Below, piece by piece: positions 17,446 through 27,934 of a stretch of DNA of 52,568 nucleotides; position 1 is the stretch's first letter, and each line of letters begins with the position of its first letter. Origin of the DNA: Bacteroidetes bacterium QS_8_68_28. GTDB lineage: Bacteria; Bacteroidota; Rhodothermia; Rhodothermales; Salinibacteraceae. The notes below the pieces were generated by a model. The model made no database searches, had not been told where the DNA came from, and worked only from the letters and a program-made list of their open reading frames with translations. A program made the translations under genes and the position numbers. Location of the stretch: assembly GCA_003022485.1 (NCBI GenBank), contig PXTS01000034.1:13250-65817 (forward strand). Direction: 5' to 3'.

Positions 17446-18693
17446 CTACTGCTCGTCGCCGCTGTCTGGGAAGTTTGCGCACTGCTCAACCTGCTGCGCC
17501 TTCTCGCGCTGGTTGGTCTGCACGTACGCCGTGAAGAGCGGGCGGCAGATCTGCTCTTCGTTCAGGTTCGTGTCCGAAGCGTCCTGCTGGAGCTGCTGCC
17601 GCGCCGCCGTCAACGGGTCGATGGACTGCCGGAACAGCTCGGTGCGCCGCTCGGCCAGCTGGCTGATCTGCTGGTCGAGTTCTTGTATTTCCTGATCGGA
17701 AAGCTGTTCGCTCTGGGAGCTGCGCCGCTCGTCGAGCGTGCGGATGCTGTCGTTGACCGCAACGGCCTTGTTGCGGTAGGCCACGCCCAGGTTGAAATGC
17801 GCGTTAATATTGTCGGGATTGAGCTCTACCGCTCGCCGAAGCTGCTCGATGGCCGCGTCGAAGCGGTCGGCGTTGAGCAGCATTGAGCCGTAGTTGGCGC
17901 GGTAGGTCGCATTTTGCGGATTGGTCTGAATGGCCTCCTCGTAGGCGGTCATGGCCTGCTCGGTATTGCCGGCTCGCACGTAGGCGTTCAGCAGTTGCGA
18001 GCGGAGGTCGGCGTTTTCGGGGTACTGGTCGGTAGCGTCCTCCAGCAGGGAGATCGCGTCTTCGGTACGCTGCTGCTGGGCGTAGAGCTGCGCGAGCGTG
18101 TTGTACGTGGGCACCTCGACGTCGCCGATCTCAATGATGCGCTCGTAGGGGGCGATGGCCGCCTCGTAGTCGCCGGCGTTGATGTAGGAGTTGGCCGCCA
18201 GGCGAATGGCACGCACGGAGTCGGGCCGAATCTGCGAGGCGGCCTCGAAGTAGGAAGCAGCCTCACGGAACGTCTCGGGGTCGTCCAGCGAGTCGGCGCG
18301 GTTGTACGCCTGGGCCCCCCGGCCGAACTCCTGCTGGTAGGCCTGAATCAGGCGCAACTCGATGGCCTCCTGCATCCCCGGGTCGATCTCGATGGCCCGG
18401 TCGTAGGAACTGCGCATTTCACTAATCAACTCGGCGCGGCGCTCGGGGGCGTCCGCGTTCTGCGCCTGCTGGTAGAAAATGTTAGCCTTCAGGCGGTGCG
18501 CCTGGGCGTTCGTCGAGTCGGCTGCAATGGCCTTGTTGACGCTCTGGAGCGCCTGATCGTAGTTCTGGTTTTCGAGGGCGCTCTCCGCGTCGCTGATGTT
18601 GGGATTGCTGGATCCGCACCCGGTGGCGGCGACCAGAAGCAACCCGCTCATCAGCAAGGCGAAGAACGGACGGCGGCGAAGCGGCGTGGACAT
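17446..18693 (-). CDS. TPR-repeat lipoprotein
   Basis: 415 residues. A lipoprotein signal (FFALLMSGLLLVAATGC) is followed by about eight tetratricopeptide repeats from about residue 30 to 330, for example DQALQSVNKAIAADSTNAQA, ETFREAASYFEAASQIRPDS and DAAIEQLRRAVELNPDNINA. A coiled segment (about 335-370, SDQEIQELDQQISQLAERR) and a short tail follow. TPR arrays bind partner proteins; here probably as a scaffold at the inner face of the outer membrane or in the periplasm. No partner is suggested by the neighbours. The ATG at 18693 gives the complete lipoprotein signal; the longer upstream frame is not convincing. Confidence 0.88.
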   Translation of the reverse strand: MSTPLRRRPFFALLMSGLLLVAATGCGSSNPNISDAESALENQNYDQALQSVNKAIAADSTNAQAHRLKANIFYQQAQNADAPERRAELISEMRSSYDRAIEIDPGMQEAIELRLIQAYQQEFGRGAQAYNRADSLDDPETFREAASYFEAASQIRPDSVRAIRLAANSYINAGDYEAAIAPYERIIEIGDVEVPTYNTLAQLYAQQQRTEDAISLLEDATDQYPENADLRSQLLNAYVRAGNTEQAMTAYEEAIQTNPQNATYRANYGSMLLNADRFDAAIEQLRRAVELNPDNINAHFNLGVAYRNKAVAVNDSIRTLDERRSSQSEQLSDQEIQELDQQISQLAERRTELFRQSIDPLTAARQQLQQDASDTNLNEEQICRPLFTAYVQTNQREKAQQVEQCANFPDSGDEQ

Positions 18694-18976
18694 GGCAGAA
18701 AGATCGCGGTTGAGGAAGAAAAGCGACACGAAAAAAGCAAGCCGAGCGGGAACCCCCCAGCGCACTTTTTCAGACGCGAAAGAATGAGTGTGAACCTGAA
18801 AGGTGCGCACGGACAAAAAAGACGTAAGATCCGATGTTGCGCCGAAGGCGTGAAATGCAGGAAACGACTTCAGCCGCTCCTCCGCGTGCCGGTCCCGAAC
18901 TGGGCCGTCGGAGAAACTGCCTCGCGCGGCGCGCTTTGCAGAAAGCCGCTCCCTTTTTTCCCTGCTTCCGCCCGTC

Positions 18977-20047
18977 ATGCCTCCCCCCGAGCGCGCCGCC
19001 GCGCCGGGCGCCCCCGACGACGCCACCAACGGCGAGGTCCCCGAACGCCTCCCCGACAGCCTCCGCGCCCTCCTGGGCAGCCTCGTCGATTACGCCGGCT
19101 ACTTCCCCCCTGCCGATCTCTCGCTGCGCGAAGCCGTTCAGGACTACGCGCGCTACCGGCAAAAGGAGCACGCCTGGATGCTCTCGCGCTTCGTGATACC
19201 CATCGGTCTGCTCGCCGAGCTGGACGAATTCGCGCACCTCTTCGCTGAGGACGCCAATAGCGCGCGCGGCGAGGCCCCGCCCTACCGATTCAGCGTGCTG
19301 GGCACCGGCGGCGACACCGAAGAGGCTTTTCTCGATGCCTTTGCCGAAGACCTCGACGCGCTGGCCGCCTTCACTGCCCGCCGCCAGGGCCGCGCCGCCG
19401 CCGACATGATGGAGGTGCCGCTGCCAGCCGGGCTGCTGGAGGCGGGCAAAGGCGACCTCGAAACCTTCTTCGGCGTGGTGCACCGCCGCCTCGTGGCCGC
19501 CGGCACCGCGCGCCTCGACCTGTTTTACGAAATCCCTCTCGACGACGACGGCGTCGAGGCCGTCGCGCCGGCGGCCCGCGCCCTCGCCGCGCACAACGCC
19601 GGGCAGGAACGGCCGTTGCGCGCGGAGGCGAGCCTCAAGTTCCGCTGCGGCGGTGACACGGCGGCGGACGTCCCCGCCCCCGCCCACCTCGCACAGGCCA
19701 TCGCCGCCTGCCGCGACGCCGACACGCGCTTCAAGGCCACCGCCGGGCTGCACCACCCCGTGCGCCACCGCGACGACGACCTCGGCGTGCACCGCCACGG
19801 CTTTCTCAACGTCTTCGGGGCCGCCGTGCTGGCGGAGGCGCAGGGCCTGGGCCCCAAGGCCCTCCGCGAGGTCCTGCTCGAAGAAAATGCCGACCACTTC
19901 CGCTTCCGCCCGGACGCGCTGGCCTGGAAGGATCGCACCGCGCCCACGGTCGCCATCGAGCGCGCTCGCGAGCATCTGGCCGCCTCCTTCGGCAGTTGCA
20001 GCTTCGAGGACCCCGTGGCCGACCTGCGCGACCTGGGACTGCTTTGA
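18977..20047 (+). CDS. Unrecognised protein paired with fumarylacetoacetase
   Basis: 356 residues with no signal peptide or membrane segment, so probably cytoplasmic. I do not recognise a named family. Sequence that looks conserved includes LVDYAGYFPPADLSL near the start, FYEIPLDDD in the middle, SLKFRCGGDTAADVPAP, FKATAGLHHPVRH and HGFLNVFGAAVLAEA. The repeating alternation of strand-like and helix-like stretches, with charged loops at strand ends, would fit a TIM-barrel-like fold, but that is inference. It lies 148 bp upstream of fahA on the same strand, which suggests a role in aromatic amino-acid breakdown or in handling fumarylacetoacetate. Confidence 0.8.
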   Translation: MPPPERAAAPGAPDDATNGEVPERLPDSLRALLGSLVDYAGYFPPADLSLREAVQDYARYRQKEHAWMLSRFVIPIGLLAELDEFAHLFAEDANSARGEAPPYRFSVLGTGGDTEEAFLDAFAEDLDALAAFTARRQGRAAADMMEVPLPAGLLEAGKGDLETFFGVVHRRLVAAGTARLDLFYEIPLDDDGVEAVAPAARALAAHNAGQERPLRAEASLKFRCGGDTAADVPAPAHLAQAIAACRDADTRFKATAGLHHPVRHRDDDLGVHRHGFLNVFGAAVLAEAQGLGPKALREVLLEENADHFRFRPDALAWKDRTAPTVAIERAREHLAASFGSCSFEDPVADLRDLGLL

Positions 20048-20195: not shown

Positions 20196-21473
20196 ATGCC
20201 CACCGACCCGTCGCTTACCTCCTTCGTCGACGTTCCCGCCGGCTCGCACTTTCCCATACAGAACCTGCCCTACGGGGTCTTTCGCCCGCAGGAAGGCGTG
20301 ATGCCGCGCCCGGGCGTAGCCATTGGCCCGGAGGTGCTGGACCTCTCGGCGCTTCAGAGCCGCGCGCTCTTCGACCACCCGCAGATCGCCGAGCGGCATC
20401 CGTTCTCGGGACCCACGCTGAACACCTTCATGGCGATGGGGCCGGACGTGTGGCAGCACGTCCGTGAGCGCCTCACCGAGTTGCTCCAAGAAGGTAGCGA
20501 CCTCCACGAAGACGCGAACCTGCGGGAACGCGCGTTCTTCAACCGCGAGGACGTGGAGATGCTCCTGCCCGCCGAGATCGGCGACTACACCGACTTCTAC
20601 TGCTCCGAGGAGCACGCCACGAACGTCGGCACCATCTTTCGCGGCCCCGAGAACGCCCTCAACCCCAACTGGAAGCACCTGCCGGTGGGCTACCACGGGC
20701 GCGCCTCCAGCGTCGTCCCCAGCGGCACGCCCGTGCGCCGCCCCTGCGGCCAGACGCGCCCCGATGACGACGAACCGCCCGTCTTCGGCCCCACCAAGCT
20801 GCTGGACTTTGAGCTGGAGATGGGCTTCTTCGTAGGGCCGGGCAATCGCCTCGGCGAAAACATCCCCATCGACCGCGCCGCCGACCACATCTTCGGCATG
20901 GCGCTGGTGAACGACTGGAGCGCGCGCGACATCCAGGGCTGGGAGTACGTGCCGCTGGGCCCGTTCCTGGGCAAGAGCTTCGCCACGACCGTCTCGCCCT
21001 GGATCGTCTCGATGGCCGCGCTGGAGCCCTTCCGCCAGGCCGGCCCCGAGCAGGACCCCGAGCCGCTGGACTACCTGCACACCGACCGCGACGGGGCCTA
21101 CGACATTCACCTCGAAGCGTCGCTCACGCCCGCAGGCGGCACGGCGAAGACCATCTGCACGACGAACTTCGGCTACCTGTACTGGACGTTCCAGCAGCAG
21201 CTCGCGCACCACACCGTAGGCGGGTGCAACGTGCGGCCCGGCGACCTGATGGCCAGCGGCACGATCAGCGGCCCCGACCCCGGCAGCTACGGCAGCCTGC
21301 TGGAGCTGACGTGGCGCGGGGAAAACCCGATTCCCTTCGAGGCCGGCAGCGAGCGCACCTTCCTCGAAGACGGCGACTGCCTGACGCTGACCGGCTGGGC
21401 CGAGCACGACGACGGCTACCGCGTGGGCTTCGGCGAATGCACCGGTGAGGTACTGCCCGCGCAAGGGGGGTGA
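20196..21473 (+). CDS. fahA: Fumarylacetoacetase
   Basis: 425 residues, the length of the full two-domain enzyme. It hydrolyses fumarylacetoacetate to fumarate and acetoacetate, the last step of tyrosine (homogentisate) breakdown. Family hallmarks: NLPYGVF at the N-terminus, [16 protein letters not shown], the catalytic-site stretch [18 protein letters not shown], metal ligands around [12 protein letters not shown], and [19 protein letters not shown]. No homogentisate dioxygenase is visible nearby; the only candidate partner is the unrecognised gene just upstream. The ATG at 20196 gives the usual N-terminus. Confidence 0.96.
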
Positions 21474-24007: not shown

Positions 24008-27000
24008 CTACTCCGCGCCCGTCCTCGTCGGGACGGCGACCGTCACGCACGTGCCCTCACCCGGCGCGCTGTCCACCTCGAGGCGCCCGTCCAGCAGGCG
24101 CAGGCGCTCGCGCATCTCGGCGAGGCCGTAGCCGCTGGGGCCGTCGTCATCCAGGCGCTCGGGGGCGAAGCCGTCGCCCGCATCGCTGACCTGCACGATC
24201 ACGTCCGCTCCTTCGGTGCGGGCGTGGAGGCGGGCGCGGTCGACGTGCGCGTGCTTGACGACGTTGAACAACAACTCGCGCCCCGTGCGTAAGAGCAGCG
24301 CGCGCAGGTCGTGGTCGGGCACGGCGGGAGCCTCGCCTACGTCCGTCTCCACGGTGAGGGCGTAGCGCTCCTGCATGTGCTCGGCCAGCCAGCGCAGGAT
24401 GTCGCTCAGCTCCTCTTCGCGCAAGACCGACGGGCTGAGCTCGGCAGAAAGCGTGCGCGTCGTCTCGACGGATTCTTCCAGAATGGCTTCGAGTTGGTCA
24501 AGCATCTCGGCTTTTTCCTGCCGCACCGCGCCGGTCAGCGGCTCCCCCTCGGCGGGCAGGCCCCGGCGCAACTGGCGTACGGTCATCTCCGCGCCGTAGA
24601 TCTGCTGCTGGACCTCGTCGTGGAGGACCTGCCCGATGCGGCGGCGCTCGCGCTCCTCGGCCTGGACGAGCTGCGAGACGAGGCGGCGCACCTCGCGGGT
24701 GCGCTCGGCCACGCGCTCCTCGAGCTTTTCGTTGAGCCTGTTGAGCTCCTGTTCGCGCTCGCGGCGCTCGGTGTTGTCGCGCATCACCTTCGCAAAGCCG
24801 CGCAGGTCGCCGGTCGGATCGTAGAGCGCCGTCATCACGCCGCTGGCCCAGAAGCGCGAGCCGTCGGCGCGCACGTGCCAGCGCTCGTCGGCGGTCTGGC
24901 CCTCACGACGGGCCGCCTCCATCTCTTGCCGGGGAGCATCCTCGCCCCGGTCTTCCTCAGTGAAGATGAGCGCAGCCGGCCGCCCGACGATTTCGTCCTC
25001 GGCGTGGCCGAAGATCGCCTCGGCCCCCGCGCTCCAGGTGGAAATGCGGCCCTCCAGGTCGATCATGAAGATGGCGTATTCCTCCACGCCCTCCAGCAGG
25101 AGGCGGTAGCGCTCCTCGCTGCGGCGCAGCTCTGCCTCGGCCTCGCGGCGCTCGGTGATGTCCACAAAGCTCAAGACCACCCCGTCGATCTTGTCCTCGC
25201 GCGCGGTGCGGTAAGGGCGAATCTGCGCCAGAAAGTAGCGTCCCTCGTCGTTTTGCACCTCCTCCTCGATAGGCGCGAGCCGGTCCAGGACGCGCCGGGC
25301 GTCGTCGGTGAGCCCGTCGTAGTCGAAGCGCCGGGTGACGTGATCCAGCGGGCGGTTCCGGTCGCTCTCGATGATGTTGAACAGGTCCTTCGCGCGCGGC
25401 GTGAAGCGTTGCACGCGCAGGTCGCGGTCCAGAAAGACGGTGGCGATTTGCGTGGAGCGCAGCAGGTTTTGCAGATCACTGTTGAGTCGGCTGAGCTCTT
25501 CGTTTTTGTTCGTCAGCTCTTGGTTGACGGTCGTCAGCTCTTCGTTCATCGAGCGGAGCTCTTCTTTGGAAGTCTCCAGCTCCTCGGTGGTGGAGCGCAG
25601 TTCCTCGTTCATCGACTGCAGCTCCTCGTTGGAGGCGCGCAGTTCCTCCATCGAGGTTTCGTACTCCTGGACGGTGCCTTGCAACTCGCGGCGCGTCTGC
25701 CTGAGCTCCGTTTCGAGCTGCTCGATGATGTCGCCTGGGTGCCCTTCCGCCGGGACTTCCTCGGCAGGCGAAGGCGTCTCTTCGACGGGGGCCGTCGGTG
25801 CGGCGGAGCGGCCGTCCGTCTGCTCACCGGGCGGGGGGTCCTCATCGTCGGCGGGCTCGAAGCGCACCAGCGTGAAGGTGCTCTCCTCGACCGGGCGCGC
25901 GACGAGGCGCACGCGACGACGGCGCTCGTTCTGCTCCACTGGCACCGCGCGGCTGCGGACTTCGCGCTTCCCGCCCCGGACCTGGAAGAGCGCCGACCGC
26001 AGCGCCGCACGCAGCGCCGGGCGCACCATCTCGAGCACGTTGTGGGTGGGCGTGCCGTGCGCCACGCGCAGGTACGCGCCGGCCCCCTCGAAGACGTGCA
26101 CGACGTCGTTCTGGTCGTTGACCACCACGCCCGGCGGGGCATACTCCTCCAGCAGCTGCTCGCGCACCTCCTCGAAGCGGGACGGCTCGCGCCTCGGCGC
26201 CGCGCCGGTCGCCTGCTCTTCCGTCAGCTCCGCCCCGCGCTGCAGGAACGGCATGTCGCGGAACTGCGGCGGCTGCGCCACGTCCTCGCGCCGCCGGTAG
26301 ATGCGGTGGTCTTTGTTGAGGGGGCGAAAGAGGTCGCTCATGTCCTCGGCGCTCTCGGCGGAGCCGAGGAACAGGTAGCCGCCGGCCCGCAGGGCGTAGT
26401 GAAACACCTCGAAGATGCCTCGTTGCGCCTCGCGCTTGAGGTAGATCAAGAGGTTGCGGCACACCACCAGGTCCAGCCGCGAAAACGGCGGATCGCTCAT
26501 CAGATCGTGCTTGGCGAAGATGACCGACTCGCGGATGCGCCGCCGCACGCGATAGCCGCCGGACTCGTTCTCGAAGAAGCGTTCCAGGCGCTCGTCGGAG
26601 AGGTCCGCCGCGATATTGTCGGAGTAGTAGCCCGCGCGGGCGGTGTGGACGGCCTCCTCGCCGAGGTCGGTGGCGAAGACCTGGATCTCCGGCACCGGCT
26701 CGTTGCTGCTCTGCAGCGCGACGGCGTGCTCGTGAAGCAGGATGGCCAGCGAGTAGGCTTCCTCGCCGGTGGCGCAGCCGGCGGCCCACACGCGCACGGT
26801 GTCTCCGGCATCCTTTTCCGCGAAAAGCTCGGGGACGACCTCTTCGCGGAGCGTCTCGAAGGCCTCCTCGTCGCGGAAGAAGTTCGTGACGGTGATGAGC
26901 AGGTCCTTGAAGAGTTCCTTCGCCTCGCCCTCGTGCTCGCGCAGGTAGGCCAGGTAGTCGGGCAAGCCCTCGATCTGGTGCACCTGCATCCGCCGCCCGA

Positions 27001-27763
27001 TGCGGCGCAGCATGGTGGAGCGCTTGTAGTCGGAGAAGCCGTGCCCGAAGCGCGCACGGAGCTGGGCGAAGATCTGCGAGAGCACCTTCTCGTCGCTTTC
27101 GTCGAGGGCCTCGCCGTCCTCGGGAAGCTGGATTTTGGAAAGCGCGTCGCGGTAATCGACGAGCCGCTCGGCCAGCTCCGCGACTGGGGCCACCACGTCG
27201 ACCAGCCCGGCGCGCACGGCGCTGCGGGGCATGCCTTCGAACTCCGCCTCCTCGGGATCTTGGACGAGGGTGGCCCCGTCGCGCTCCTTGATGCGCTTCA
27301 GCCCCGTGGTGCCGCCGCTGCCGGTGCCGCTGAGGACCACGCCCACGGCGTTTCCGTCCTGGCTGTCGGCCAGGGAGCGAAAGAAGAGGTCGATGGGCGC
27401 GCGCTCGGCGCGGGAGGCGGTCATCTCGGTGAGGTGTAGCTTGCCGCCGCCGTCGATGATCATATCACGCCCGGGAGGGATGACGTAGACGCGGTCGGGC
27501 GCCAGTTCCATGCCGCCGTCGTTCTCGACGTGCGTCACCTCCATGGCGGTGGCGTCTTGCAGCAGACGGGGCAGCTCGCTCTCGCGGTCGGGGTCGAGGT
27601 GTTGCACGAGGACGAACGCCATGCCGGGGTCGTCGGGCAGGTGCTCGAGGAAGCTCTGGAAGGCTCCCAGCCCGCCGGCGGAGGCTCCGATCCCGACGAC
27701 GGGGAAGTCCAGGCGGTCGGGAGCGGCGTCCGTGTCGGCGTCGCGTTCGTCGTCAGCAGACAT
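24008..27763 (-). CDS. CheB-CheR-PAS-histidine kinase hybrid
   Basis: 1251 residues. Order: CheB methylesterase-like domain (about 20-200), CheR methyltransferase (about 215-490, SAM motif VWAAGCATGEEAYSLA), a long coiled coil rich in EEL/NEEL (about 700-790), two PAS domains (IATVFLDRDLRVQRFTPRA; YAIFMIDLEGRISTW), a HisKA_3 domain with the His in RRRIGQVLHDEVQQQ, and a HATPase domain (DAGDGFAPE; GYGLAEMRERL). The CheB Ser28 (GIGASAGG) and His55 (VQHLDP) are present, but the catalytic Asp position in the usual SGTGSDG motif is Gly150 (SGTGSGG). It lacks chemotaxis neighbours and probably signals to the NarL-type regulator encoded upstream. Start ATG 27763. Confidence 0.93.
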   Translation of the reverse strand: MSADDERDADTDAAPDRLDFPVVGIGASAGGLGAFQSFLEHLPDDPGMAFVLVQHLDPDRESELPRLLQDATAMEVTHVENDGGMELAPDRVYVIPPGRDMIIDGGGKLHLTEMTASRAERAPIDLFFRSLADSQDGNAVGVVLSGTGSGGTTGLKRIKERDGATLVQDPEEAEFEGMPRSAVRAGLVDVVAPVAELAERLVDYRDALSKIQLPEDGEALDESDEKVLSQIFAQLRARFGHGFSDYKRSTMLRRIGRRMQVHQIEGLPDYLAYLREHEGEAKELFKDLLITVTNFFRDEEAFETLREEVVPELFAEKDAGDTVRVWAAGCATGEEAYSLAILLHEHAVALQSSNEPVPEIQVFATDLGEEAVHTARAGYYSDNIAADLSDERLERFFENESGGYRVRRRIRESVIFAKHDLMSDPPFSRLDLVVCRNLLIYLKREAQRGIFEVFHYALRAGGYLFLGSAESAEDMSDLFRPLNKDHRIYRRREDVAQPPQFRDMPFLQRGAELTEEQATGAAPRREPSRFEEVREQLLEEYAPPGVVVNDQNDVVHVFEGAGAYLRVAHGTPTHNVLEMVRPALRAALRSALFQVRGGKREVRSRAVPVEQNERRRRVRLVARPVEESTFTLVRFEPADDEDPPPGEQTDGRSAAPTAPVEETPSPAEEVPAEGHPGDIIEQLETELRQTRRELQGTVQEYETSMEELRASNEELQSMNEELRSTTEELETSKEELRSMNEELTTVNQELTNKNEELSRLNSDLQNLLRSTQIATVFLDRDLRVQRFTPRAKDLFNIIESDRNRPLDHVTRRFDYDGLTDDARRVLDRLAPIEEEVQNDEGRYFLAQIRPYRTAREDKIDGVVLSFVDITERREAEAELRRSEERYRLLLEGVEEYAIFMIDLEGRISTWSAGAEAIFGHAEDEIVGRPAALIFTEEDRGEDAPRQEMEAARREGQTADERWHVRADGSRFWASGVMTALYDPTGDLRGFAKVMRDNTERREREQELNRLNEKLEERVAERTREVRRLVSQLVQAEERERRRIGQVLHDEVQQQIYGAEMTVRQLRRGLPAEGEPLTGAVRQEKAEMLDQLEAILEESVETTRTLSAELSPSVLREEELSDILRWLAEHMQERYALTVETDVGEAPAVPDHDLRALLLRTGRELLFNVVKHAHVDRARLHARTEGADVIVQVSDAGDGFAPERLDDDGPSGYGLAEMRERLRLLDGRLEVDSAPGEGTCVTVAVPTRTGAE

Positions 27764-27853
27764 GGCGAGGCGGGTTTTTGATTCGGCAGGACATCCCCAG
27801 CAGGGGCCGGCCCCCCCGTGCCGGCCCAATGGCGTCGCGTCGGGGCCGAGGGA

Positions 27854-27875
27854 GGGCAACCACGGGGGGTTGCCC
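27854..27875. repeat. GGGCAACC hairpin, resembling a dispersed bacterial repeat
   Basis: GGGCAACC, a 6-base loop, then GGTTGCCC: a perfect 8-bp stem in the leader region of the kinase gene. The sequence resembles a palindromic repeat I recall from many bacterial genomes (GGCAACC...GGTTGCCC). Its copy number here cannot be judged from one window. Confidence 0.6.
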
Positions 27876-27934
27876 GTACGGGGGCGCAAATGGCATCGGG
27901 CGCAAAATGGGCCAATGGGCAGGCGCCCATGCCA

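Follow-up and report, generated by a model that had tools for sequence, protein, structure and literature searches.

The stretch of DNA analysed here (52,568 nucleotides, hereafter the window) carries an open reading frame (ORF) with an ATG start, encoding a protein of 356 amino acids, which is located directly upstream of the fumarylacetoacetase gene fahA, as the original prediction had it (Table 1). Both this protein and its unnamed family are referred to as X. The two genes lie on the same strand, separated by a gap of about 148-149 bp, and the fahA of the window encodes a genuine fumarylacetoacetase (FAH). Divergent from X is an ORF for a TPR-repeat protein, a homolog of which flanks the X-fahA pair in the loci of many relatives, and beyond fahA a 1293-aa ORF has, by eye, the look of a large fused chemotaxis-type sensor (CheB/CheR/PAS/histidine kinase). 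The nearest named match of the window is the MAG Bacteroidetes bacterium QS_9_68_14. In a genome of the same genus, fahA is spread over two overlapping frames (L002/L003, G001:C44:3219-4425), reflecting either a frameshift or an assembly error. It had also been stated that the other genes of tyrosine breakdown are not nearby. This is correct for the window, within which none of HPPD, HmgA and MaiA is encoded, but not for the genome as a whole (G000, 62% complete), in which an hmgA-hppD pair is found on another contig (G000:C5).

Table 1. Positions in the window of X, its residues of interest and the genes around it
Feature	Position	Strand	Evidence
TPR-repeat protein ORF	17446-18804	-	
X, 356-aa ORF, ATG start	18977..20047	+	ORF call; homologs; fahA linkage
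R223 codon	19643..19645	+	Arg in 68/69 intact X (1 gap), 0/6 decayed copies
K253 codon	19733..19735	+	Lys in 69/69 intact X, 6/6 decayed copies
H259-H260 codons, GLHH motif	19751..19756	+	H259 in 68/69 intact X, 0/6 decayed copies
C341 codon, S[FY]GSCSF motif, proposed nucleophile	19997..19999	+	Cys in 69/69 intact X, 0/6 decayed copies
fahA, fumarylacetoacetase (FAH)	20196..21473	+	TIGR01266 E 8.2e-185; PF01557/PF09298
1293-aa ORF, sensor-like	24008-27889	-	by eye

X had been described as an unrecognised protein, and the searches bear this out, since no family in Pfam, NCBIfam or PDB matched it at E ≤ 10. A profile built from 25 X rows, as well as the 25 members used singly, gave chance-level matches only against the same three collections, the members touching just five Pfam families with best E values of 0.08 to 0.16. 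Neither the MaiA profile (TIGR01262) nor the FAA_hydrolase domain PF01557, which the neighbouring fahA carries, matched X. Homologs were found in Bacteroidota, Bacillota, Actinomycetota and one cyanobacterium, and none in viral contigs. As homologs are present in 42 of 60 relatives and in other phyla, X is not a chance ORF, and the two motifs that first drew attention to it are both present and conserved across the family alignment.

The distribution of X follows that of FAH closely. FAH scored over the cut-off in 46 of the 60 relatives, 41 of which also contain X; five have FAH alone, and a single genome (G024) has X alone. All 41 relatives with both X and FAH encode HPPD over the cut-off, and 27 of them encode HmgA. 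With adjacency defined as X immediately preceding fahA in the same orientation (gap ≤600), the pair was adjacent in 37 of these 41 relatives. Across a sample of 198 genomes from the phylum, X was present in 30 and FAH in 75, including all 30 X genomes; adjacency was observed in 17 of the 30, while X lay approximately 3 kb from fahA in five. The exceptions include G033, where X is found by hppD-hmgA and not by fahA, and G122, where an intact X is located apart from fahA. In G024, neither FAH nor HPPD scored over the cut-off, and X is altered at two near-invariant sites (H259Q and N278S).

The same linkage recurs on plasmids of other phyla. Two plasmid searches listed 24 records of X, from Streptomyces (11), Priestia (6), Pseudonocardia (2), Rhodococcus (2), and Nonomuraea, Tsukamurella and Kovacikia (one each), with no Pseudomonadota genera among them. 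FAH is encoded directly downstream of X in all 12 of the neighbourhoods examined, and in 10 of these 12, spanning three phyla, hmgA adjoins X or lies near it. The gene order is hppD-X-fahA-hisC-hmgA in Priestia, an order also seen with a permease gene after hmgA (hppD-X-fahA-hisC-hmgA-permease), hmgA-X-fahA in Pseudonocardia and Rhodococcus, hppD-hmgA-X-fahA in Tsukamurella, and hmgA-X-fahA followed by CoA transferase A/B in Streptomyces Alt3. A 4-bp overlap between X and fahA is present in six of the ten annotated plasmid neighbourhoods that were measured. Conservation of the neighbourhood with fahA and hmgA, which had been proposed as a check and whose absence would have spoken against the original idea, is found both within and outside the phylum. 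By its co-occurrence and linkage with fahA, hppD and hmgA, X belongs to the homogentisate-pathway gene set, and it almost certainly has a role in the homogentisate branch of tyrosine/phenylalanine breakdown.

The homogentisate route of tyrosine breakdown employs HPPD, HmgA, a maleylacetoacetate isomerase and FAH, the textbook isomerase being a glutathione enzyme. In Sphingobium, the corresponding operon reads phhA-hppD-hmgA-fahA-maiA. MaiA (TIGR01262) did not score over the cut-off in any of the 60 relatives, where a single sub-threshold match was seen (G011), nor in any of the 198 phylum genomes; as a control for the search, it scored over the cut-off in one of 14 control genomes. MaiA had been expected in the Bacteroidota lacking X, an expectation ruled out by the count of 0/198. 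Judged by these profiles, the step without its usual enzyme in these bacteria is that of maleylacetoacetate isomerase. The earlier suggestion that the association with fahA is specific and could reflect a step that is missing or carried out in another way is supported by this absence together with the conserved linkage. Among the best 60 of 119 plasmid FAH rows, X was adjacent in at least eight and MaiA in at least 15, the latter judged from 60 of 231 MaiA matches listed, and both were adjacent in none of those listed.

HmgA required separate treatment, since TIGR01015 under-scores the type found in these genomes and gave no match over the cut-off. HmgA was counted in 35 of the 60 relatives, and a purpose-made profile returned the same 35. 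Of the 14 relatives with X and FAH but without HmgA, 12 belong to one genus, g8 (G009, G013, G015, G017-G026; loci L141, L142, L144, L146), in which hppD, X and fahA are kept (in G024, X only). No hmgA was found by two profiles in the listed genomes of this genus, and in the slot syntenic with hmgA-hppD of G005, hmgA is absent from G009, G017, G020 and G023, with hppD remaining. Possible explanations are that g8 has an unrecognised homogentisate-cleaving enzyme or that X and FAH have another use there.

Conservation within X was assessed on 69 intact rows, which were taken from fetched loci after identical and contained sequences had been dropped and which include close relatives. Six residues are invariant in this set (C341, K253, G257, D38, E146 and E185), and K221 is present in 68 of the 69 rows (one gap) and H260 in 67. 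These rows can be set against decayed copies of X, defined by the loss of C341, R223, G257 and H259, which occur in six genomes of one Bacteroidota family, f18 (G100, G130, G178, G188, G192 and G236; loci L087, L088, L089, L093, L102 and L103). In the decayed copies, C341 is replaced by T or S, R223 by N, D, E or K, and H259 by N or I, while K221, K253 and E146 are retained. The residues lost seem, from the alignment, to be those expected of an active site. All the same, the decayed copies keep full-length frames of 321-326 aa, more in keeping with a newly acquired function than with pseudogenes, and they may have taken on a new role.

In the four genomes with a gene-called X locus, the decayed X occupies the ancestral slot without fahA. 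In all six genomes, fahA instead adjoins c15, a long flavin-reductase-like protein (PF01613), and the c15-fahA locus of G188 also holds hmgA and hppD. In the FAH tree, the two of these FAHs that were included (G188 and G236) fall within a c15-type clade of other Bacteroidota (100/100), away from the native FAH of f18. The arrangement of c15 beside fahA-hmgA recurs in Bacteroidota lacking X (L083:6721-7629, L075:4223-5119, L101 and others), and in the G144 locus, which lacks X, fahA has an acetoacetate-CoA ligase nearby. Among the 75 genomes encoding FAH, long c15 was present in one of 24 with an intact X (G122), in all six with a decayed X and in 36 of 45 without X; the contrast between 1/24 with intact X and 42/51 others is significant in Fisher's test when kinship is ignored (p 4.7e-11). 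Matches to c15 on plasmids were all partial, with coverage staying below 80% of its length. Once a foreign fahA-c15 operon has been gained, X seems to be dispensable, and this gain, together with the near-exclusion of intact X, makes c15 a candidate for the role proposed for X. It may be a further maleylacetoacetate isomerase or some other enzyme of the pathway, and since 11 genomes in which no FAH scored over the cut-off carry long c15 as well, it may do more than this step. The isomerase step can evidently be met in other ways too, as both X and long c15 are absent from 9 of the 75 genomes with FAH, and Nocardia farcinica, whose record is not among the X matches, has hmgA-fahA with no X in the neighbourhood.

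Structure prediction, which had been proposed as a further check, gave a general impression only. The AF2 model of X, built from two sequences (the window and L002), is weak, with a pLDDT of 47.9 and a pTM of 0.46. A Foldseek search with this model returned nothing at E ≤ 0.001, though TIM-barrel enzymes ranked high in the list, and VIA-align gave a best Z of 9.1 (rmsd 5.7, 223 aligned), with numerous unrelated barrels at Z 8 to 9. The chains listed are ones which we take to be barrels, mostly from their names. A TIM-barrel fold for X is therefore suggested by the model only tentatively.

Taken from its gene context, X is probably a non-homologous maleylacetoacetate isomerase, standing in for MaiA where the latter is absent. 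It would convert 4-maleylacetoacetate, the product of HmgA, into 4-fumarylacetoacetate, the substrate of FAH. It is quite possible, if slightly short of an even chance, that isomerisation proceeds via a cysteine of its own. The basic residues R223, K221/K253 and H259/H260 would bind the carboxylate and the diketone, C341 would attack the cis double bond, rotation about this bond would follow within the resulting adduct, and elimination would release the trans isomer. X would need no low-molecular-weight thiol, with C341 doing what the thiol of glutathione does for MaiA. Cyanobacteria have glutathione, and the bacillithiol gene BshC was present in 58 of the 60 relatives. Mycothiol is found in Actinomycetes and bacillithiol in Firmicutes, according to PMC4360819. 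Since X spans lineages with different thiols, a built-in cysteine is favoured over a shared thiol cofactor. A wider picture is more tentative: X could found a new enzyme family, possibly of TIM barrels, that isomerises maleylacetoacetate by means of a built-in cysteine without any thiol cofactor, c15 could be a third solution to this step, evolved independently in other Bacteroidota, and horizontal swaps between X and c15 could leave the displaced X losing its active site.

Three other roles for X were considered. It could catalyse a different reaction of the same pathway, whether as an additional hydrolase or as an enzyme resembling an aldolase, with maleylacetoacetate or side products (succinylacetoacetate, for example) for substrates. 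The two conserved lysines, K221 and K253, and the tentative likeness to TIM barrels, the listed chains of which include deoxyribose-phosphate aldolases, would fit such chemistry. It is nevertheless unlikely, as FAH is present in 41 of the 42 relatives with X, leaving a second C-C hydrolase without an obvious need, and as annotation points to the isomerase as the missing step; moreover, precisely these lysines are kept in decayed X, whereas C341, R223 and H259 are gone.

If X were no enzyme in its own right but served FAH as a partner, chaperone or activator, this would account for the tight adjacency of the two genes, their 4-bp overlaps and the decay of X where the native fahA has been replaced. 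Against this stand the enzyme-like invariant residues of X, including a cysteine, an arginine and two lysines, and genus g40, which has the native FAH type without X. The FAH of Kovacikia, which is linked to X, and that of Sphingobium, which is linked to MaiA, are sisters in the FAH tree (97/90), so the association of X is not confined to a single type of FAH, and the placement of X in G033 and G122, away from fahA, also speaks against a partner; we consider this role quite improbable. Finally, X might act on something else and merely be carried along with fahA, for instance in the genomes without HmgA, which make up 14 of the 41 relatives with X and FAH. The presence of HPPD in all 41, and of hmgA next to or near X in 10 of the 12 plasmid neighbourhoods examined, from three phyla, renders this very unlikely indeed. 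The isomerase role proposed for X would address a gap, given that MaiA is lacking from all 198 sampled Bacteroidota genomes although 75 have FAH. In four phyla, X supplies a candidate for the gene that is wanting, and C341 a defined residue to target; if the role is true, it would let a widespread hypothetical protein be named correctly.

Among known enzymes, the deoxyribose-phosphate aldolases and other TIM barrels share with X the tentative fold likeness (Z 8 to 9, from the low-confidence model), but no significant sequence or Foldseek match. The closest functional counterpart would be MaiA/HmgC, a zeta-class glutathione transferase (TIGR01262), as X is likewise placed between HmgA and FAH, in the operon and, as proposed, in the pathway, and the two are mutually exclusive among the plasmid rows listed. 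They have no sequence similarity, and while MaiA uses glutathione, X has its own invariant cysteine and occurs with other thiols. The zeta-class enzyme is described as acting when GSH is present (PMC10950700). In the literature searched, most subscription papers being outside its scope, no report of a glutathione-independent maleylacetoacetate isomerase was found. Rhodococcus ruber Chol-4 grows on homogentisate, and the legend of its homogentisate cluster gives hmgA and hmgB and no isomerase, whereas the text says hmgABC (PMC6498646).

The proposed action of X resembles that of the mycothiol-dependent maleylpyruvate isomerase, which likewise uses a thiol for cis-trans isomerisation, on an analogous product of ring cleavage. 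That enzyme serves the gentisate pathway, and X also occurs outside mycothiol producers. The maleylpyruvate isomerase is DinB-like, and X is not in this family, as it has no Pfam match at E ≤ 10; nor is this family among the five touched by the 25 members. Non-GST isomerases are thus known, the mycothiol-dependent enzyme being reported from the gentisate pathway of Corynebacterium and Rhodococcus (PMC6498646, PMC3937715). Within the Bacteroidota, the nearest parallel is c15, which belongs to an unrelated family, is found in the same kind of operon as X and nearly excludes intact X.
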